A stretch of 64,000 nucleotides of DNA from Owenia fusiformis (lineage: Eukaryota; Annelida; Polychaeta; Sabellida; Oweniidae), in contig CAIIXF020000003.1 of NCBI GenBank assembly GCA_903813345.2, positions 15,700,931-15,764,930 of the forward strand. The letters run 5' to 3'. A model generated the notes under the pieces. The model ran no database searches. It was not told where the DNA came from and saw only the letters and a program-made list of their open reading frames with translations. The position numbers were made by a program, and so were the translations under genes. This document shows positions 50,401 to 64,000 of this stretch, piece after piece; the stretch's first letter is position 1, and every line of letters begins with the position of its first letter.

Positions 50401-53400
50401 TAATAAGGGAAATATAGCCTGTTCACTTTTTGGACCACCCAGTATAAAGATCATTCACAATTACACCGGGATGGATAACGTCATTACAAAGAACTGAAAT
50501 GGAAAAGGCAATAAAGGAACACGGGGTTCCGAAATATTTTGCAAATTAAAATGACAAATAAGACTCAAAATTAAGAAAATTCAGAAGAAAGATTTCCCCT
50601 ACCACAAAATTATTAGGAAAACATCAAAACTGTGTGAACAGGTCAGGATTAACCCTTTGTATTTTGCAGTACCATATCCTTTTTCCCCGTAATTTTGTTT
50701 TTAATGTAACTTAAGCTCAATGGATTATGTTTTTTGAATTGTGCATAACACTTATTGAAAAAATGATAACGAGTATCTATTAAGGTTATAGCTATTCGTT
50801 TTAGGAGTAGCAACATCCAGTGAATTATATCATATACCTGAAAAGGTGACATAATTTATATATATAACTGCAGTATCTTTGCCAAAAATCTAACTACAAA
50901 TATATTCTTTCTTTAAACCCTACATGTGTACCCGTTACACTACATTTCTACTCGTTAGTTATTATGAATATGCTAGTTTGTTCTCATTTATGATATAATA
51001 TTACCTGAACAAGACAAGCGCCTTCTCCTGACACATTTACTGTAACCACATCGTTGCCTGGGGGAATCTAGAAAACATAAGGTGACACATCTGATAATAC
51101 ATGTTACAATAAAAAGGCTTTGCAACATAGGTTTGAAACCTCGTAATAGCCTCCTGTTCAAATACGATTGTAGACAACTTTCATATTTATTACATCTAAT
51201 TTGATTTTACGACATGCAACATGTAACAGGTAACAACAAGGTAAGAACAATTTTTCTCGTCATATTTGCTGAAAGTGCAATTGTAATCCATTTATGTATC
51301 TGATTATATAGAAATTCTTCTATTCTAACTTAAAAGAATCTAAAATTAAATTTTCAATTTAGTAAAAACAAGATGTTAATATTTTAAAAGTAAGTAACTA
51401 AAATTTAATAACCAAGGAAACAGATTACGTAAATTATTACAAATTTTGAGCTAATCTTTAATCTTAAATTACGTGTTTTTTGTACATACCACAACACATT
51501 GCAGAATGACAGCATTGTCGTTCGTGATCGTATTGAAATTATGAGTGAATGTCCCTGCTGTGACAGACACATCGATACTAAGGTTTCCGGATGATACCAT
51601 GATTCCAAACTCTGATAGTGCCCACAAACCCATAACAGTGTCCTGGAATTTATTTGATATAAAAAATCGATTTCTAGTGCTAAAAGAAAAATGATGTGGG
51701 CTGGTATGACTGGTTATGGTTTTATATGTCTTGTGTCTTTTATAGTTATATTTATATTTATGCTTTATGTTTTTATTAGCCTACGTATGACTCTAGATCT
51801 TTATTTTCAGAAAAGTCATATTTTGTCACGTATTGAGATACCATCCTCCCAATATGCTGTACTTTGTAGCGACCATTGTATACCTGAGTGGATGAAAATC
51901 CTCCCAGGGAATTCCTTTGTTTTGTCAGCCACCTCAACACGCCTAATGCTCTATTCAGGTCATTGTTGGCCACAAATGTAAGTAGGGCATACGAAGCAGT
52001 CTCGATCAAAGAAGCTCCAGCTTGGCGATGATAAGGGCACCAACCTCCTCGGCTACGATCACATGGCGGAGGTTCTTCATATCCCTCTGGTTTCCAGTAT
52101 ACCATACCTCCTAAGATATAGGCAAATGTAATAGTTATTATGAACGATTTTGAGGCAATCTTAATTCAGTTCCTCAAACAGTATACTTTTATCAAAGTAT
52201 ACTATACATCTTGCATATTGTATGATAGGGAACTCATTCACATAATAAAATAAAAAAGCTCAAAATCCCCCTTGCAATATTCCACTACTTCCCCATCACT
52301 GCTAAAGAGGTTATGATGCAATTTTAACCTTCAATGATGTTTCAAGACTCGGAACATTAATTTCGCTTATTTGACCTTCGTCATATTAACCTTATTCATA
52401 CGTGATTCAATTAAATAAAGTAAAACACATTCTACCTCCTGCTGTCCGCTTTGACCATAGTTTGTCTTCACATTCCTGTGCCCTAGATGACTTAGCCACA
52501 CGTAAGGCATACGCCATGATAGCCAACGCATATGGATCTTCTGTTTCATCAATTTGGCCTTCTACAAATCCAACTGCTGTGTCGATAGCAGTATTAGTTT
52601 TCGCCGGAGCCTAAATTGAATAAAACGTTGTAAACAGCAACTCTGTGGAGCATTAAATCCCACCCAACAAAACGAGTTTTAGCGGATCACACATCGGTCT
52701 GAACATAACATTATATAACCAGAAGGTAGAAGTGTTTCCTTTTGCAAAATCTACCACATATATGTGAGATGAAAACAACTTGAGGTATAAACTTAACATT
52801 TTATGAGAAAAATATATGCTATTTTGAATTCAGAAATCATCAGTATATGAAATCTGAATATAAACAGACAAATGGAGTATATTAGTTTTAAAATTTAAGT
52901 TTTATTAGCAAAAGGGTGACGGCGATTTTGAATTGAGGAGTTATACTGGAAATACTTCATAAAACAGGGACCTTATTCCAATAAGAGAGACAAACCGTTA
53001 AATTTGAATCAAAAACAGCAATTTTGAATTCAGTGGCCTGCTTAAAAATTTATTGATCAGAGGTCCCATTATCCATAGGCATCAGCAGATTGCTGATAAA
53101 TGGTGCGGCCAAATTGAAAACAAAGATCATTAATCGAAATCCGTCAATTGGCATTTAAGATAACGTAGTGATGGATAAAGGGACGGACAGGAGGACGGCT
53201 TCTCTTTATCACATTCGAACTTCGTCTGGCACATTTTAAGTGCTTATGATATAGATATGGTAGGACACAATCTTTACCCCTTCAATATCCCGGTTCTCTA
53301 GGAGTGCCAATAGGACATATGACGTCATAGTTACACTTGAAGCGGATCCTCCCTGAAACGGCACAAATTAAAATAACTAGCATCATATCAGAACACCATA

Positions 53401-56400
53401 AGACGCTAACACCGCACAATCAACGGAATTCCTCGCCCTTATCGTTTCCTCATTTTAATCCACTTGATTCTAAAGATTAAGCATTTCACTTTTTAGCATA
53501 CCACCACTAATAGCAGGTTACATTATGTACATAGCATGTACCAATACAAAATATAGAACAAAATAGCGATTAATAAAACAAATATTGCGTTTTAATAAGG
53601 CAGATATCATGTATGTATCTTCAAAAAGTAAGATAAATTGTGATGTGAAGATTAAACATCTAGGTACAAGCCACTTTTGATCCCCGAACAGTACAAAAAC
53701 AGATTATACCTGCATAGCTTTATGACACACTTTTCCATGCTCTGGGAATAAACCCTTAAGCTCCCCACTGGTAGTCTGTTCACTTATTATCCACGCCATT
53801 GCAGCTGTTATTTTCTCATCATCTATGACGTCACTGATGTATCGACGCGCTTGAGCAAATGATCTGATGACAAATGCTGTCAACCTATATGGAAAATTCC
53901 AAATCAGTTGTTTTTAAAGATTTAAGTTATTATTTTCAGTTAAGTTATTTTATGTAACACAGTTCAGGCTAAGGTCGATAGAAATAATTATCTTTAATAA
54001 GAAAAATAAATCAAAAATAAAGATGGTATGGAATATTGGATTCTGGTGCTGCCATCTTTTATCGGCCAAAAACCTATGTGTTGTAAAACACCTGCTTTCT
54101 ATATAGTAATTTAGAATCTTGCAGAGTATTTAACAATGATGATCTTACCACATACTGCCTTTTGGGTCATGATCCCCAAATGCTGAGAATGAGCCAATAT
54201 CACTTTTCTTCTTTTGGTAATTCAACTCTCTTTGATAACCTACATTTAAAAGATACAATTTAGAAAAACCATAATGAGAAAGCATCGATACTGATACCAG
54301 AATATCAGAAATACGAAACAAAAAATTAAAAAGAGATCATCAAGGCTTTAATACGCAATATACGATATAACTTATAATTGTAAATTGACAATTACTGACA
54401 GACTGTCAAAAAAAGCTGCTTTTTCCACTCTAACTCATTTTCGTAATATATAATTATCCAGTCATGGTTTCGTGTACTTTGCAATCTCGGAAGTCTGAAA
54501 ATGCAATATTAGTAAGTAGCCAACACTGGTTTGTGGCGATTCTCTTCTTCACCTTAACTTCATATGAGTTATGGGGCTTCACCTTAACTTGATATGAGTT
54601 ATGGGGCGTTCGAAATTCGCTCTAATGTGCATAGGATTATCGGATTTATATTCAGTATGACAGGGTGTGTGCTTTAACATGAATCTTTTCTGCCATCATG
54701 ATAAACCATGACATCTCATTTCCCCTCAGCCCTGAGATGTTTCAGGTGAACCAGAAAGATGCTATGGGTATCAGAATGCTTTTCTGCTGCTTTAGATACT
54801 CAACCCCTTTGGCAACTGTGCATATGTATAGGTCTAAGCCAGACTTAAACATAAACAACCAAAAATACAAAAAACTGGCAACTGTGCAAATGTATAGGTA
54901 TAAGCCAGCAGACTAAAACATAAACAACCAAAAATACAAAAAATGGCAACTGTGCAAATGTATAGGTATACGCCAGCAGACTGAAACATAAACAACCAAA
55001 GATACAAAAAATGGCAACTGTGCAAATGTATTGGTATAAGCCAGCAGACTAAAACATAAACAACCAAAAATACAAAAATGGCAACTGTGCATATGTATAG
55101 GTCTAAGCCAGACTTAAACATAAACAACCAAAAATACAAAAATGACGTGAACTTTTTATAAATATTTGACATACCAATTTCCATATTCTGTATAGCTTTT
55201 GTTCTGATAACACTCGTGTCACGACCAACAGCTTCAAGGTACTTCAGAACAAAAACATTAGGGACAAATCCTAACATATTCTGTTCGCCACAGCCTGTGG
55301 GAACACGAAGCATTTTACCCAACTTTTCAGGATCCAGAGCAGGTCCCATTATATCTCCTGTAAGAATAAATTCGATTAAATTTAATTAAAGCCACCATGG
55401 CACTTGAAACTTAAAATCAATTTGCAGGACAATTGTACTATAATTAAATAAACGTTATGAAGATGTGACATATAACTCAGATGTGTTCAATTTATCATGT
55501 TCATCCTGAAAGCTAATCAAAGTACTATGAAACAATAATATTTTCTCTTCCTACAACTGCTTCACAACATATTGTGTTCTAAGTTTTCTATAGACATTGA
55601 TATATAATTTCATCATTTTTCTTCCACATTACTGCTTATTGTCATTTCACTCCATAGGGAAGAATTTTTTTCAAATAAAAGATTGCAAAATATCATGTAT
55701 TCAATAATGCTGAAATAAAAGTGAGGATACTGACCGACAATGCAAATCTCTACTCGTTTTGACCCATTGATTGCAGTTGGTGGAACAGAGATGTCAAATT
55801 CCTCTGAAAAATTGCCGTTGGCTAGATCAATGTAAACCATGTTGTTGATATATTTTGTAATACCCTCAGGCTGAAAATAAACATATTATACAAGCTAGGT
55901 CAAACTATAATAATGTATAAGTGCAGACATGTTGAGATATGATAAATTGGATTGGTATATTTCAACCTTGTCTTGATTAAAATTAGGTGTGTTCCTCATA
56001 AAATGTATTTTTAGTCAATGCCATTAGTGCAATGGATTAATCATTTTAAATCATTTAAAGATATTAACAAAAGGGAGCTAGACGCAAGACAGTTATTGTT
56101 TCATAAACAAACTACTATTTATGTAATATTTCTTAACCTCAACTAAAAGTGTCCTTTCAACAGCATCGGCAGCAACGTTTGATTGGGCCATTACTTCTAG
56201 TTTTATATTACCAAGTTCCGTAGTGCATATCCATATAGTCACAGATTTTCCACTGTTAGCTGGTATCTGAAATTGTTATATCGAACCAAAATGATACCAA
56301 TTAATCAGTCTTATGCGATTATGGTTTATAATCTCGTTTTTGAGCAATTTTGAAGTTGTTAAACTGAAATAAACGCTAGAGGCTTTGGTGGAATTTAAAC

Positions 56401-59400
56401 ATACAGATTAGATGATTTCAAGCATTAACAGTTTAGATTTAGGCAGTGTTTATTAGTATATGTCACTGATTGGTACAGGGTGTTCAAAAAACGCAACCCA
56501 AAGAAATCGCTATATCTTGAAAGTTCAATTATGTTAAGTTTTTCAGGAAAGAAAGAAGAGACTGTGTATGTATAGCTCTTGTAGTTGGTTAGTTGTAAAC
56601 ATGATAGATTGGACACTTGCTCAAAAGACAGTTGCACTAGGAATACGAAAAACCCAGTCAAGGGTGACTGCAACCGCAAAAAAACTAAATAACTTCCTAA
56701 TCATCGTGTTTTGGCTCTTCAAATTTGGCACAAATCATCTTCATTCACAGTATGATGAATATCTAAAGTGAAATTAAAATCACTCCAGGAACTTTATACG
56801 AGGGGTGATCCAAAAGTCTTGGACGCCCCGCTCTAACTTTGCTATTTTCTAATATAATTGCACGAAACTTTCAGATAATAAAGATCAACATCTTAACAAC
56901 TCTGTGTATAAGTTTTAACAGAAAATAATATATTTTAGCTTTTAGGTAAAGATTTTTTAACACTGGGTCCCTGCCACCCGGAACGGTATTTAAATATAGC
57001 AAATCACGTCACAACTGTTATAATATGGCAAATACTTTAGGTGCGGGTGCACAACCTAACACCAGTCATTATATGAGAGAATTTCCAATTTTCAGTCTGA
57101 GTGTCATCTGCCATCATCATCTTCACATATTAAGACCTACTTTTCAACATATTTTCCACGAATTTGAACCCCTTTTTCATACCGCTTTACCAATGAATGG
57201 AAGACATTTATGAAACCGCCATTGCTTATGTGATACAAATGCTGCTGGAGTGCCACTCTAAGCCTCATCCAATGAGTAAAAAAACATTTTCTTTCAACCC
57301 TCCTTTCAACTTCGAGAAAAGGAAGAAAATCACATGGAGCCATATCTAGACTGCATTGTGCATATGGTAGCTGCTAAAGGTCAATAATAGTGAAAATATA
57401 TTGTAGTATTCTTTGTTCCACTTTGATTTCTTTCATTTTCTGCATTTCAGCAGCCATTTTGGAGCAAAAATGATACCAGAATGAGGGTTGCTTGTCTTGT
57501 CATTTTCTTAGAATTTGACAGATATGATCATTGTCATATGGGACATTTTAATTAAAACACAATTAGTTGGTTGCCTAGTAAGAAAGGAAGTAAACTAACA
57601 TGATTTAACATTCACAATTCAAAGAAAGACAGTGGTCAAGACTTGCGAAACAAGTCAAATGGCTGCAACATTTAAGGCTGAAAGTTGTCATGTGTGAATA
57701 CCGTTCCGGGTGGCAGGGTCCCCATATTAAAAGCTGTCTAGAAAACTACATAAAACATATCATTTCTCCATGAAATTAATACACAAAGTAGTTAGGTTGT
57801 TGGTCTTTATTATTGGAAAGTTTAAAGTAATTTTATCAAAAACCAACAAAATTAGAGCAGGGCGTCCAAGACTTTTGGATCACCCCTCGTAGTTATGGTC
57901 GAAATGCTTTCAAATTGCAGTCAAACGCCCTGGTTCAGGCAGACTTCAGAAGGCATTTGACTGTGACTGTAAGTTCCTGAAGTGATTTTGATGAAACTCC
58001 ACAAATTCACCACACATTGAATGAGGATAATTTGTGGCAAATCTGAAGTGCCAAAACACTATGGTTAGAAAGTTGTTAGGTTTCATTGATGTGGTAGTCA
58101 CCCCTGACTGCGTTTTTCGTATTTTCCTGGTACAACTGTCTTTTGGGCAGGTGTCCAATGCATCATGTTTTACAACTAACTACAGGAGCTATACATACAC
58201 AGTATCTTCTTTATTTTCCTGAAAAAATAAACATAATTGAATTAGTATTTTCCAAGATATAGCGATTTACAATTCGCGTTTTTCGTATTTTCCTTGTGCA
58301 ACTGCCTTTTGAGCAGGTGTACAAGTCATCATGTTTTACAACTAACTAACAACAGGAGCTAAACATACACTTTCCTCCCTGAAAAAATGAAGACAATTGG
58401 ATAATAATTTTTCAAGATATGGCGATTTCTTTGGGTTGCGTTTTTTTAACACCCTGTATTACTGTTCATAGTGTTCTAAATGTAGACATAGGAATTTCCT
58501 AAATAGATAGACTTACAATAACAATGATAACTACATCCTTGTTTTCTGGCTCCAATTCGTCAATGTCATTACCATGTTTAACCTTGAACTCTGAAGAGCT
58601 TTTCAATGTGATAGTAACCTTAAGAGATAAATGCAATACATTAATTATAATCTTGACAGAATTCCGTCATTTCAAGTCATAGAGGCTTTGTTAAAATACG
58701 ACCAGTCTCAAATTCAATGAATTGCTCATTTTGCTCGGGAACAACACGCCCTTTGGGAAATTCTTATTGTTTCGTTGGGATGCAAGTTTGAATTACCTAG
58801 ACGTATACCTCTACCTCTATATCTACACTCTTAAAAATGAATTACTTGAGTATTTCCCAAGTATTTCCCAAGTATAAAAATTACTTAAAGTTAAATACTT
58901 AGTTTTACTTCATTTTACTTAGGTTTAACTTATATTGTCATTTTGAGTTTATGTAAATGAGTATTACAATTACTACAGTAAGTATTTCAATTTCTCTCCT
59001 TGCATTAGTAAATTCACCATAAATGAATTACTTAAAAATTACTTAAAAATTATTCAGTAGTTCAAGATTATTTAAGTAATTTTTGACTTAAAATGAGTAG
59101 TACAATTTCTCAATATAAGGAAATCCAAGTAATAATTTTTAAGAGTGTATTTATGTTTTGGTGTTACTGAATAACACGCTAATTACTTGACGGTGCTGTT
59201 TCACTAACTTCGTTATTGTCAAACGTAAGAATTTTTTAAATAACTCATATTTAATATTTGAACATGATTTTAGACCTTTACTATACTATGTAATGTACAG
59301 CTATGTACTGTTATACAAAAACAAACCTCCGTCTCGTTATCCATATAGTTGAATACGGTTATAATAAGTCCAAACTCCTCCCCTCTTACTACGCTATATG

Positions 59401-62400
59401 GCAGAGTCAGGGAAATGAAGAATGGTTGGAACACTGTCAACTGGAATAAAAAGATACGCAATGTACCTAACTATACATGTACACTTATATTGATTACAAA
59501 GGAGTAAATAAAACTTGTTAATCAGGAGACACTCTATCGAATATCAATTTACAACCAGAGTTCATTGAAACAATGTCACAAACGTATAGTAGCTAAATCA
59601 GCATGTTCTGTCGTAAGTTATATACACTAATTAATTCTTAATTTACTTAGAGAACAGTCGAGCTAATTGTGTGTAAAATGTGTATGAATGTTTCCTCAGT
59701 CTACGTCTAGAGCAATGAGCATGTTAAGCTTAGCGCTGTCGCCGTGAGTTCGATACACGTCAGCTCCTTGCGTTTTTTATTTAAAAGCATTTTAATTTAA
59801 TAGAACAGTGTATACCTTCGCAGTAGTTGGAGCAACTCCAAGTCCAGCAGTTGGATGGAGAGCAAAAGCACTTGCAACCCATTTAGTAATTGTATCAGGT
59901 ACAGTAGCAGTAACGCTTGCATTTCCATCAGGGCTGAATAGTCAATAAAAATCAGGTTTTACTATTTTCATCATATCATTATCATACAAGATTTTAAACA
60001 TTACTGTTTTCAAATAGTAGGATTTAGTTTCAAAACAAGTTGATGAACAGAAATATTAAATACATAATATGTAATATCTAGAATTGAGACATAACTTCAC
60101 ATTAAATTTATGAGCAATTTATTTCAAGTTAAAAGTTTTCTATAATAAATTAACAACCTATATTTTCACAATCAGTTGAATTCTTATTTAAGAATCCGAA
60201 CATTAAGAAAGACAGATCCAAAACAATAAATAGTATTAATGAAATAAGCATTCTGAATGGTTACCTTTTGGACAAAGAGATGAAAACCATGCAAACGATA
60301 TAGTAGTTTGTTTGTATATTTGACGAGACTTCACATTCCAAAATGGCAAGATAAAGCATGCATGCACCTGTAAGCCTGGCTTAAAAAAATCCACTTTGAA
60401 TTAAGATTTGACCATTGCCACATTGCCATTTGATATTGCCATGATTAACAAAACAAGGTTCTCAAACGAAAAACCTAAAAATCGCGCGATCTAGCGTGCG
60501 ATCTAGCGTAAAATTTAATCCCATTTAAAGGATTAAGTCCAGGGCACGTAGACATTTTTTGATATGCCACGCCTTTACCTTATTATTTCGTACTAGCAAG
60601 TATCTCGAGTGTTACATTTGTAAGTGCTTCGTGAAAAAAATACTTAAGTCGTTAGCTACATGTAGGATATACTTTAGTCGGGAAATATTCAACCTCATGT
60701 TTGCATAAATATTTCAATAGTGCAATCCTGGATGCATATTGGGATAGGTTTTCCAACAAGCAATGTGCTTATTGCAAATCTTGGAAACAGAACCAATACG
60801 GAAAACATTTTAGTTTGACAGTTTAAATGAATCTGAAAATGAAGATGATAATGTACACGATGGTGTTCATTTAAAATTCAAAATCGGTAATTAAGTAATA
60901 AATAACTCTGTGATAAGGACAATATAAGAATAGCAACAAATCTATCATTTCCAATTGAACCCATATTCACTATAGAAACAATGTTGCAACCTTGAAGAAT
61001 TTCTGCTGTTTCTTCTATAAATACAAACTTAGATTAAGATGTGAATATGTTAATCTAGCTGTACATGCGTGAACAACCCTATAACCGAATTCGAGAAAAT
61101 AAGAGGCGACACCACTAACAAATATTCAATATACAAAACTATGATCTAACCTTATGTAACTCGATGTCCAATTTCCCCTCCCCAACTCTTCACAAATAAT
61201 GTGGACACTAGCATTCATACAATACATATTTCAAATAATGTGGAACTGACAATATCCAGTATGTAAGTTGGTAAGACTGCAAAAGGTCAATATCCCTTCG
61301 CTCCGACGTCATAGTCATCAACAAACAAAACTTAAGAATGGCATTTCTTAAAAAGAATGTTTTCTCGTATTTTTCTTTAAAGGGGGTATCTCAGATAAGA
61401 ACAGTCACATTCTTCAAAAACAACGACTGCAATGAATAACACACACTATTTGATCGCTGGGGTGAAACAGGAGAAACAAAAAATCAAAATGCAATAATGA
61501 AGTGCGCTTTTGGAAAAATCATACATACTGAACAGATGATTCAATGGTATTAATATATTTTGAATATTTTTCTTAATTGTGTATTTATACAATGAAAATC
61601 TATGACATCATTTTCCTTTTTGGTATTTCAAAATTCAGCAGCGGAATGAAAAATGGACACCTAAAACAAAAGTGGCGTATGGACTTATTGACAGCCATAA
61701 CACATTTGTACGAATTTAAAGGCAAATATTGCATGGGATTCAAATTATGTCACTGCTTTTCTGGATGTCGAAAAACTGATCCCCTGTGGTATTTCTTGGT
61801 AGCAAAGATTAGTTGGTAGTAAAACAGTATCGAATGGTATTGATTACCATACCTCTATAAAGATCCACATGCCACAAAAAAACTTAATTATTGAATTACA
61901 CAAGCGTTTTGTTTACTAAAATGTTTTAGAAAAATATGATGTTTATATTGTCCATCATATTTACTATACCAAACATAAAATTGAACTCTTAATATTGTGA
62001 AAGTTTAAATAGATCATGTTGGAACTGACAAAACGATGTAATCATGCAGTTGGAAGCCCTATTGGCAATACCCGGTGATAAAGGAGCTCCAAATCCATGT
62101 TTCTGGAAACGTTTTCCTCTTTGTTACTTGCTCTTTAAGTTGCTTTGAGTTACCAGTAATTTGACGTGGAGGTTCAGGCCTTGTAAGTTCCTTTGAAAAT
62201 TCTGCCATTTCCCAAAAGAATCCTTTAAATCTCGCAAATTATTTTGAATGAATACGAAATGTCAACTATGTCCATTTTTATATTGACTTATGCAGACTGG
62301 TTCTTGTTTGACGACAATTTTTTACATTTGTCTTTGAATATTAATGACTCACTTTTGTGTCAAATATTTTGTTTTCGGGTCAGACAATTACTATAAGATC

Positions 62401-63550
62401 TGACATTTAACTTCGTATACAGTATAACGTTATGCTGTATAGGGATCAAATGAGGATCAAAACCAGCCAGAGTTTCTCCTGACGACCATTAACTAATATT
62501 TATCATATGGAATATGGCGTCGGAAATTTCCAAATGGTTATACGTTTTCGGATAACATTTCCAACTTAGAAAAGTTATCCAATGGGAGATCGTTCCCAAA
62601 TTAATGGGTTATATAAACAGATGTTATGAGTGTAGATTTGGTTGGTGTAAATGAAATGCTCAAAACATGAGATTACATTATGGTGATTTAAATTATCTGA
62701 AGATTTACTAAAATTTGTCTTGCTGAAAATAGTTTCAAATGTTCAATGAAATGTTATGAAAAAACCGTCTCTCAAAATCAATGACTCTGGATATCGTTCC
62801 CTCTCTAGATTCAGTAAATGTAAGTAGGTAACCCCAATGGTGACTACACTATAAAATAAGTAAATAATTACCCTTCATATCGTGGACAATACATAGTAGA
62901 GCTTGATATACATATACAGACAGGTGGCCGACAGGTGCCAAAGGGGGAAATACCAGTATATTACCATACACAGCAAGAAGTAAGAGAGTAAGATAACTAT
63001 CAGTTGTTGTATGAATGTCCATCATTTCTATAACTATAAAGAAACAAGCTAACACTCTCATCTTTTAAATGGTATATATTGCATTGGTACCCATGTCCAG
63101 TTGGGATCCTTTGTTACTCATTAAGGAGTGGATTTTAAAGCACTTGTTCACGAGCCAAACATGTAGATTTATACCTTCCCAAGGATCTCCCAAAACGAAT
63201 GCACCAATTAATTTATGTCAATACTGAAATGCCAAGTTTCCAAAGTAAAGTATCAGAAAAATTGTCCTGTTCGATACGATTTGCTTAAATTCATGCACAC
63301 TGATCACACACAATACATTTTGAACAATCATGTATTGTTGATAAAAACAAGTATTGTTTGTAGTACCCAGTGGTAGCTAAAGTCCAAATCCAGGTCTCTG
63401 GAAAAATCGTCCTCGTCGTTACCGGCTCCCTGACCGAGTTGCTCGAAGGTGGTGGGGGACCTGGTGCACCTGGACGGGGTAGGGCCGGTCCTGGTTGACC
63501 AATTGGCCGTAACGCTGCTTCTGGTCTCATTGCAAATATTGGATAAAACG
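47087..63550 (-). CDS. TEP: Thioester-containing protein (TEP/CD109/A2M family), C-terminal part
   Basis: A secreted or surface immune protein of the complement/alpha-2-macroglobulin superfamily. When proteases cut the bait region, an internal thioester bonds covalently to targets. I trace 18 exon positions, all with GT/AG ends and matching phases, giving a continuous ~881 codons plus stop (with the longer bait exon). In order: bait exon (two alternatives), post-bait MG domain with [10 protein letters not shown] and [15 protein letters not shown] region, thioester domain with [10 protein letters not shown], alpha-helical repeats, a His in [11 protein letters not shown] at the position of the thioester-steering His of C3, the receptor-binding domain, and a Cys cluster plus coiled-coil tail. 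N-terminal MG1-MG6 exons lie beyond 64000. Orthology to scallop or insect TEP versus CD109 is not resolved. Confidence 0.95.
48287..48389 (-). CDS. TEP: TEP exon, KAYSYYDL
   Basis: 103 bp, phase 0 in, 1 out; basic strand then [12 protein letters not shown], corresponding to the VYDYY strand of MG8. Confidence 0.93.
48554..48719 (-). CDS. TEP: TEP exon, [15 protein letters not shown] block
   Basis: 166 bp; [18 protein letters not shown] is the conserved MG8 signature (usually G-M-A/V-x-x-E-x-x-x-x-S-G-Y/F). Confidence 0.95.
49345..49460 (-). CDS. TEP: TEP exon, start of receptor-binding domain
   Basis: 116 bp, phase 0 in, 2 out; [14 protein letters not shown] ... MIVETCA. Confidence 0.9.
49651..50444. 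mobile_element. ~0.8 kb TIR element in a TEP intron (mariner-like ends)
   Basis: TACAGGGAGGTCCAAAAAAT at the left faces ATTTTT-like CACTTTTTGGACCACCCAGTA at the right; TA at both ends; CAGGCTA and its complement lie just inside. No transposase seen. Confidence 0.75.
51005..51067 (-). CDS. TEP: TEP small exon, [10 protein letters not shown]
   Basis: 63 bp, phase 0; [17 protein letters not shown], the usual GxGxALVQ-type strand before the receptor-binding domain. Confidence 0.92.
51490..51642 (-). CDS. TEP: TEP exon, [13 protein letters not shown] block
   Basis: 153 bp, phase 0; [13 protein letters not shown] continues FSSTQ across the splice, followed by beta strands of the CUB/MG8 region. 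Confidence 0.94.
51884..52110 (-). CDS. TEP: TEP exon, IETASYALL...GGFSSTQ block
   Basis: 227 bp; MVYWKPEG, a Cys-containing insert ([15 protein letters not shown]), then [25 protein letters not shown] and GGFSSTQ, the end of the TED. Confidence 0.95.
52436..52610 (-). CDS. TEP: TEP exon, [13 protein letters not shown] helix pair
   Basis: 175 bp; [15 protein letters not shown] then [18 protein letters not shown] helices. Confidence 0.93.
52890..53230. repeat. Decayed relative of the GGAC HINE element in a TEP intron
   Basis: GGACGGACAGGAGGACGG followed by TTCACATTCGAACTTCGTC-like sequence resembles the GGAC block and GAACTTCGTTCG end of the HINE copies, with AATTTGAATT words upstream. Heavily diverged. 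Confidence 0.45.
53278..53352 (-). CDS. TEP: TEP exon, [14 protein letters not shown] block
   Basis: 75 bp, phase 0 at both ends; 25 residues [19 protein letters not shown] and RDIEG. Confidence 0.93.
53710..53884 (-). CDS. TEP: TEP exon, [13 protein letters not shown] block with steering His
   Basis: 175 bp; [18 protein letters not shown] ... [13 protein letters not shown]. The His in VCHKAMQ aligns by position with the His of C3 that directs the thioester to hydroxyls (inference). Confidence 0.93.
54149..54239 (-). CDS. TEP: TEP exon, [10 protein letters not shown] block
   Basis: 91 bp; [18 protein letters not shown] then [13 protein letters not shown]. Typical TED helices. Confidence 0.93.
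54694..54776 (-). repeat. Dispersed repeat, copy 2
   Basis: Inverted relative of 14741-14820. Confidence 0.85.
54811..55143 (+). repeat. ~67 bp tandem repeat, five copies, next to the thioester exon
   Basis: Units contain GGCAACTGTGCAAATGTATA and ACATAAACAACCAAAAATAC; the array ends ~30 bp from the donor of the thioester exon. The sequence is unrelated to the 42 kb satellite despite the similar period. Confidence 0.95.
55175..55357 (-). CDS. TEP: TEP thioester exon
   Basis: 183 bp. The GDIMGP start is completed across the splice; [10 protein letters not shown] contains the Cys and Gln that form the internal thioester; then [16 protein letters not shown]. The motif is intact, so this protein should be able to bond covalently to targets. 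Confidence 0.97.
55735..55870 (-). CDS. TEP: TEP exon, CUB second half
   Basis: 136 bp, phase 0 in, 1 out; [16 protein letters not shown] and [18 protein letters not shown]. Confidence 0.93.
56138..56266 (-). CDS. TEP: TEP exon, [12 protein letters not shown] block
   Basis: 129 bp, phase 0; [19 protein letters not shown] then [17 protein letters not shown], a hallmark just before the thioester domain. Confidence 0.95.
56797..57891 (-). mobile_element. 1.1 kb internally deleted mariner (inner)
   Basis: TACGAGGGGTGATCCAAAAG and its complement close the element, TA at both ends, with arms of about 190 bp including CCCTGCCACCCGGAACGG. Inserted in the outer element. Typical mariner end style. 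Confidence 0.85.
57137..57457 (-). pseudogene. mariner transposase remnant
   Basis: The C-terminal part reads [19 protein letters not shown] and [15 protein letters not shown], matching the third catalytic Asp region (APCDF) and end of mariner transposases. An N-terminal-like start ([16 protein letters not shown]) lies at about 57457, with the DNA-binding and most catalytic parts missing between and a frame change. Inactive. Confidence 0.8.
58517..58618 (-). CDS. TEP: TEP exon, CUB/MG linker
   Basis: 102 bp, phase 0; [16 protein letters not shown] and [11 protein letters not shown]. Family fit from position and phase more than from motif. Confidence 0.85.
58824..59149. mobile_element. ~325 bp TIR MITE in a TEP intron, copy 1
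   Basis: CACTCTTAAAAA and complement, flanked by TA; the interior is AT-rich with repeated AATTACTTAAAA words. An inverted copy begins at 63727. Confidence 0.9.
59327..59440 (-). CDS. TEP: TEP exon, [12 protein letters not shown] block
   Basis: 114 bp, phase 0 at both ends; [18 protein letters not shown] then [17 protein letters not shown], the typical MG7 beta strands. Confidence 0.93.
59700..59768 (+). ncRNA. Possible tRNA-derived SINE head fragment
   Basis: CTAGAGCAATGAGCATG then CGCCGTGAGTTCGATACACG resembles degenerate A and B boxes of a tRNA-derived SINE; no cloverleaf or tail is evident. Confidence 0.3.
59816..59933 (-). CDS. TEP: TEP exon after the bait
   Basis: 118 bp. Completes the Gly codon from either bait exon, then [18 protein letters not shown] and [18 protein letters not shown], a strongly conserved MG-domain block of this family. 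Confidence 0.93.
59941..62071. other. TEP intron between bait exon B and the next exon
   Basis: No further FPETWIW-type exon was found on the minus strand in this 2.1 kb; no other gene. Confidence 0.6.
62072..62201 (-). CDS. TEP: TEP bait exon, variant B
   Basis: 130 bp, acceptor ATGGCAG, donor GTATTG; same phases as variant A (1 in, 2 out). It encodes ~42 residues: [13 protein letters not shown], then a Lys-rich stretch ([11 protein letters not shown]) and [13 protein letters not shown]. The basic bait offers trypsin-like cleavage sites that variant A mostly lacks. Splicing A to B would break frame, so one or the other is used. Confidence 0.9.
63367..63550 (-). CDS. TEP: TEP bait exon, variant A
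   Basis: 184 bp, acceptor TTTATAG, donor GTACTA. Enters in phase 1, leaves in phase 2. It encodes ~60 residues: a Pro/Gly-rich, uncharged bait ([18 protein letters not shown]), then [25 protein letters not shown] is the conserved end of the bait region. Homologous to exon B in its start (x-F...RPE) and end. Confidence 0.9.
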
Positions 63551-63726: not shown

Positions 63727-64000
63727 TACACTCTTAAAAATTATTACTTGGATTTCCTTATATTGAGAAATTGTACTACTCATTTTAAGTTAAAAATTAC
63801 TTTAAATAATCTTGAACTACTGAATAATTTTTAAGTAATTTTTAAGTAATTCGTTTATGGTGAATTTACTAGTGCAAGGAGAGAAATTGAAATACTTACT
63901 GAAGTAATTGTAATACTCAGTTACATAATTAAGCAATTAAAAAACTCAAAATGACAATATAAGTTAATCCTAAGTAAAATGAAATAAAACTAAGTATTTA
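63727..64000. mobile_element. ~325 bp TIR MITE, copy 2, cut by the window edge
   Basis: Starts TACACTCTTAAAAATTATTA and runs as the reverse complement of 58824-59149 up to the end of the window. Confidence 0.9.

Follow-up and report, generated by a model that had tools for sequence, protein, structure and literature searches.

The host gene and its cassettes

We analysed a window of 64,000 nucleotides from the annelid Owenia fusiformis (C3:15700931-15764930 of the 498-Mb genome); a further 40 kb upstream was also inspected. On its minus strand the window holds part of a predicted CD109/TEP-type thioester protein gene, in the middle of which at least ten intact and tandemly duplicated candidate bait exons (cassettes) lie between two fixed exons (Table 1). 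The array extends over about 18 kb and consists of ten intact cassettes and one degraded relative of exon B. Two of the cassettes, exons A and B, had been predicted from the window as mutually exclusive, and both are present as described, with an AG acceptor, a GT donor and a length of 1 modulo 3. The accompanying claim that the system is reduced to a two-way switch did not survive; the array runs past base 64000, and the window edge had cut it at two. A search for further copies beyond that base, which the original prediction itself had suggested, was the decisive check and yielded eight more intact cassettes, all upstream of A and all with open frames, intact tails and GT donors, together with the degraded one (c9x). 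In the first (3250 nt) and last (2138 nt) introns of the array, no cassette was detected by the motif model.

Table 1. Positions of the exons of the host gene and of the cassettes in its array
Feature	Position	Strand	Remarks
A2M_BRD match	C3:15785054-15785251		upstream of array
A2M_BRD match	C3:15784598-15784717		upstream of array
Exon with putative furin-like site	C3:15784233-15784397		just before last fixed exon upstream of array
Fixed exon before array	C3:15783985-15783928		outside window; ends phase 1 (after one codon base)
Cassette c1	C3:15780677-15780494		intact
Cassette c2	C3:15779577-15779466		intact
Cassette c3	C3:15778609-15778417		intact
Cassette c4	C3:15777265-15777094		intact
Cassette c5	C3:15776412-15776226		intact
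Cassette c6	C3:15773475-15773292		intact
Cassette c7	C3:15771101-15770891		intact
Cassette c8	C3:15769112-15768899		intact
Cassette c9x	C3:15767854-15767707		degraded
Cassette c10A (exon A)	window 63367..63550	-	184 nt, Pro-rich bait, FPETWIW tail; motif match C3:15764314-15764334
Cassette c11B (exon B)	window 62072..62201	-	130 nt, Lys-rich bait; motif match C3:15763019-15763039
Fixed exon after array	window 59816..59933	-	starts phase 2 (last codon base); protein 81% identical to paralogue exon
Fixed exon	window 59327..59440	-	exon joining
Fixed exon	window 58517..58618	-	exon joining
Fixed exon	window 56138..56266	-	exon joining
Fixed exon	window 55735..55870	-	exon joining
Thioester exon, GCGEQ intact	window 55175..55357	-	exon joining, domain search
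Fixed TED exon	window 54149..54239	-	exon joining
Fixed TED exon	window 53710..53884	-	exon joining
Fixed TED exon	window 53278..53352	-	exon joining
Fixed TED exon	window 52436..52610	-	exon joining
Fixed TED exon	window 51884..52110	-	exon joining
Fixed exon	window 51490..51642	-	exon joining
Final exon of joined piece	window 51005..51067	-	exon joining

What the cassettes have in common is their ending, R..FPETWIW....G. The codon pattern FP[ED]TWxW matched 24 times genome-wide (the reversed pattern, used as a control, gave 0 matches), and all 24 matches are confined to four TEP loci. The host gene has 10 of them, its two paralogues at C3:24.717-24.731 Mb and C10:35.325-35.328 Mb have 9 and 3, respectively, and a partial copy of the host gene (C3:15.675-15.677 Mb) has the other 2. 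A and B had been thought to share both ends. The FPETWIW tail proved to be family-wide, but the initial RPE is confined to A and B in the alignment of 24 cassettes; c7 and c8 have MRP in common with A, and the degraded sister of B, c9x, is without RPE. In c9x, NLETWIC replaces FPETWIW and the G ahead of the donor is lost; the frame is still open, and the cassette aligns to B plus flanks (317 bp, 73%).

Across the same alignment the cassettes differ in length and in composition. With the constant tail counted, c2 has 8 acidic residues and 1 basic residue in 36 aa, c8 has 14 basic and 3 acidic in 70 aa, c6 has 17 Thr in 60 aa, c7 has 20 Pro in 69 aa, and A has 14 Pro in 60 aa; c1 contains CRKGKRC. 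To call A nearly uncharged, as had been done, was an overstatement (5 K/R and 3 D/E in 60 aa, compared with 8 and 4 in 42 aa of B, tail included).

Domain and structure searches were carried out with the joined piece of the B isoform (643 aa). It matched the TED domain (PF07678, E 5.5e-88) and the A2M domain (PF00207, E 1.8e-29), and the GCGEQ thioester is intact in the joined exons. The closest solved structure was that of human CD109 (8s3o, 383.6 bits), followed by human A2M (335) and Anopheles TEP1 (256), and we regard the host, on this sequence evidence, as a CD109/TEP-type alpha-macroglobulin. The gene probably extends downstream of the final exon in Table 1. Its introns contain tandem repeats at C3:15765049-15765771 (unit of ca. 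145 bp), C3:15781598-15782488 (ca. 163 bp) and window 54810-55144 (ca. 65 bp).

Reading frame, splice sites and cassette use

Isoforms were built from the upstream fixed exon, one or more cassettes and the 13 downstream exons. All ten single-cassette isoforms are open over the joined exons, among them A alone and B alone, which enter in phase 1, leave in phase 2 and join 59933 in frame, as originally proposed. When all cassettes are skipped, the joined piece reaches a stop after 59 codons, and each of the 45 ordered cassette pairs, A joined to B included, gives an early stop. Every one of the 22 intact cassettes in the three arrays is 1 modulo 3; arithmetically, three cassettes joined together would likewise be out of frame and four would be in frame. 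Because zero or two cassettes bring an early stop, we infer from this frame lock that splicing is mutually exclusive. Frame-locked alternative bait exons in a TEP gene, the core of the original prediction, are thus supported by the sequence through the cassettes, the frame joins and the TEP domains. Frame lock alone accounts only for the failure of wrong products, not for the choice of cassette.

The acceptors had been picked by eye under the frame constraint and are circular with respect to phase. A phase-blind test was made with a matrix from 14 acceptors of the host gene's fixed exons, c9x being excluded. The best AG found in this way was phase compatible in 19 of the 22 intact cassettes (one third expected, p 4e-7) and coincided with the hand-chosen site in 14 of 22. 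The acceptor of B scores lowest among the ten in its array (2.71) and second lowest of all 22, after d1 of a paralogue (hand-chosen acceptors). There is an alternative same-phase acceptor for B at window 62222, which would make the exon 151 nt long; it scores 1.57 and aligns with the acceptor assigned in c9x, and B may splice either there or from the acceptor for 62201.

These observations bear on the possibility that the two-way switch is real after all, with A and B alone in use and the upstream copies mere relics. One upstream copy, c9x, is indeed degraded. However, the other eight have kept frames, tails and donors, retention of FPETWIW would be unexpected in neutral relics, and B, one of the two supposed survivors, has the poorest acceptor of the ten; we consider this explanation very improbable.

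The donors of the array are weak. None of its ten cassettes has G at +5, compared with 7 of 14 fixed exons of the gene (Fisher p 0.0099), and donor scores are lower in cassettes than in fixed exons (Mann-Whitney p 6e-5; consensus matrix from general knowledge). Such donors would fit regulated exons. They are no rule in the paralogues, where 3 of 9 and 1 of 3 cassettes carry +5G. In Dscam, the choice among tandem exons is controlled by docking/selector RNA pairing. For both C3 arrays the first and last introns were scanned for ungapped 16-nt pairing, with reversed introns as the control. Of 8 comparisons, 3 had a best score higher than the control (these were all in the paralogue, with a margin of 1.0 or less), 1 had an equal and 4 a lower one, and the mean score was slightly higher than the control in 8 of 8; this is no clear signal of docking/selector pairing, and the Dscam mechanism has no clear counterpart in the introns scanned.

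We think it very probable that one of at least ten intact bait exons is spliced into each mRNA of this gene; each bait would be cut by different proteases and so trigger a shared thioester domain. One cassette would be spliced between C3:15783985-15783928 and window 59933, and products with zero or two cassettes would stop early and presumably be lost by nonsense-mediated decay. That different baits are triggered by different proteases is plausible: the acidic, basic, Thr-rich, Pro-rich and clustered basic baits would each be cut by a different protease set, the cut would trigger the thioester domain common to all isoforms, and a single gene would equip the cell with traps of about ten specificities. 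Some of the cassettes that look intact may nonetheless not be in use, since the acceptor of B is poor and its sister c9x is degraded.

Alternatively, the peptides may chiefly affect how a complement-like protein recognises its targets or is processed, rather than protease trapping. The closest solved relative is, after all, CD109 and not the tetrameric A2M. Furthermore, RRRRRRSIWWPW, in which six Arg are followed by SIWWPW, is encoded by the exon immediately preceding the last fixed exon ahead of the array; RRRRRR|S, outside the cassettes, is a possible furin-like site whose function is putative. Against this, the alignment with CD109 shows FPETW following a variable segment there too, so that the cassettes, directly before FPETW, stand at the bait position, and they vary in length and composition. 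On balance this alternative seems to us unlikely, although it deserves some weight.

Paralogous arrays and the history of tail and bait

The three arrays (those of the host gene and of its two paralogues) were tabulated as 25 cassettes. Of these, 22 are intact, and the remaining three, c9x, d2 (FPETLIW, without a GT donor) and d9x (stops and a shifted frame), are relics. This count covers loci with FPETW motifs. TEP loci without such motifs lie on C4, C5, C10 (28.27 Mb) and C12, and in the gene at C3:19.11 Mb an exon is apparently contiguous across the cassette border (weak match, 25% identity). Introns of the host gene (window 56478-58449, in pieces) and of its C3 paralogue (C3:24729949-24730630) share a repeat that is probably a transposon. 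PF16915, the haemoglobin linker domain that marks annelids, has three matches at C6:27033687-27048438, in keeping with an annelid source; searches for COX1 and for mollusc haemocyanin, the latter with no positive control, gave no match.

The partial copy of the host gene occupies C3:15666000-15685999, ca. 15 to 35 kb to the left of the window, and is about 91% identical over 5 kb. It includes two cassettes as well as the upstream exon and BRD1, a bait-domain exon. When the next two exons and the thioester exon were sought in its 20 kb, only two weak matches to one of them appeared (E 0.14 and 0.63). The copy looks truncated, and it is either a true duplication or an assembly leftover or haplotype. 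Compared with the gene, it shows no replacement changes in BRD1 (62 codons) or in the upstream exon (19 codons), one by eye (unscored) in BRD2, 5.5 in the 60 codons of c1, and insertions or deletions in c2.

One might also suppose that a single cassette dominates in most tissues, the others being rare or decaying, and that the array is mostly birth-and-death noise. The three degraded copies among 25 and the weak donors are what this explanation would lead one to expect. Yet 22 intact cassettes retain frame, tail and splice sites, and between the c1 of the gene and that of its partial copy the values of dN (0.039) and dS (0.113) over 60 codons hint at constraint, with 10 changes only. We therefore judge the explanation rather unlikely, and continue to prefer use of many cassettes, one per mRNA.

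The less expected part of the finding is an asymmetry between tail and bait. Identities of globally aligned segments have a shuffled background of ca. 0.69 to 0.78, and local scores against shuffles were used instead, for 200-nt flanks, the bait part and the last 66 nt; 15 chosen pairs were run first and then every possible pair inside each array, relics among them (55 + 55 + 3 = 113). Tails were alike (z > 5) in 81 of the 113 pairs (38, 40 and 3 per array), and bait parts in 6. The downstream intron was alike (z > 5) and the upstream intron not (z < 3) in four pairs (c2/c3, c2/c4, c3/c4 and d8/d9x), the reverse held for two (c8/c10A and d5/d6), and both flanks were alike in three (c7/c8, c7/c10A and c9x/c11B). 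The d10/d11 pair is borderline, with z 71.8 downstream and 2.7 upstream in the chosen-pair run and a place in no class in the all-pairs run. Among c2, c3 and c4 (C3:15777094-15779577) the baits are unrelated too (z of 0.5 or less), with a sharp 5′ border of similarity between neighbours. Because the baits of d8/d9x and of d10/d11 are alike, the exchange pattern rests mainly on the c2/c3/c4 family. The partial copy points in a similar direction: around c2, it and the gene are 94% identical in the tail and downstream intron, 80% in the bait part and 87.5% in an upstream piece.

One speculative possibility is that the cassettes consist of two modules with separate histories: the tail (R..FPETWIW....G, donor and downstream intron) would be copied or homogenised, and the half that codes for the bait, together with acceptor and upstream intron, would be exchanged. 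Recombination at the border between bait and tail would in that case diversify the arrays: baits would be shuffled in the germline and, through splicing, supplied to three paralogous traps with 22 intact baits between them. Recombination or conversion at that border would explain the asymmetry; fast change of baits combined with differing duplication breakpoints would do so too. Because the 113 pairs include four alike downstream only, two upstream only and three on both sides, we hold germline shuffling to be a tentative and on the whole doubtful proposal. The tree of cassettes is weak (2 of 23 inner branches starred, d9x omitted); in it the three C10 cassettes cluster (93/87), and those of the two C3 genes are intermixed.

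Known bait-exon arrays and significance

Bait-exon arrays are already known, and that of the host gene joins them, larger than the window showed. The account of Biomphalaria glabrata BgTEP2 in PMC7016707 gives 12 mutually exclusive tandem exons over 30 kb with transcript support, and these resemble the present cassettes in their varied length and composition, conserved C-terminal part and bait-like position. The snail array comes with transcripts, whereas the ten intact cassettes here, in an annelid, are predicted from genomic sequence and are accompanied by paralogue arrays of 9 and 3. For BgCD109 of the same snail, that account gives 8 predicted alternative exons in the cleavage region, 4 of them seen in transcripts; we liken it to the host gene by type, as a CD109-type TEP with such exons. 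Fewer bait exons than the ten found here are given for Chlamys farreri CfTEP (six, mutually exclusive, with seven isoforms and expression reported to depend on sex and pathogen; PMC7016707). The array likewise exceeds that of Drosophila Tep2, for which the sources describe five isoforms by alternative splicing of a hypervariable region, exon 5 (PMC5489563, PMC7016707). Six variants are listed for shrimp A2M-2 (PMC7016707) and twelve A2M isoforms for one fish (PMC6650032), and tick A2M bait variants are on record. The tandem mutually exclusive arrays of Dscam, an immunity-linked gene (PMC4244043, PMC2685406), are similar in arrangement and belong to a protein unrelated to the TEP host. Among the literature matches listed, we noticed no title on a bait-exon array in annelids.

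The present array probably places one of nearly Biomphalaria size outside the molluscs. If its cassettes are used, a single gene would yield about ten protease traps that share an effector domain; in the genome as a whole, three such genes have 22 intact baits between them, and the seemingly truncated copy has two more. Given the asymmetry between tail and bait in three cassettes, the way in which new baits originate can be tested among individuals, and the arrays would offer a natural bait library for mapping the proteases that trigger TEPs.
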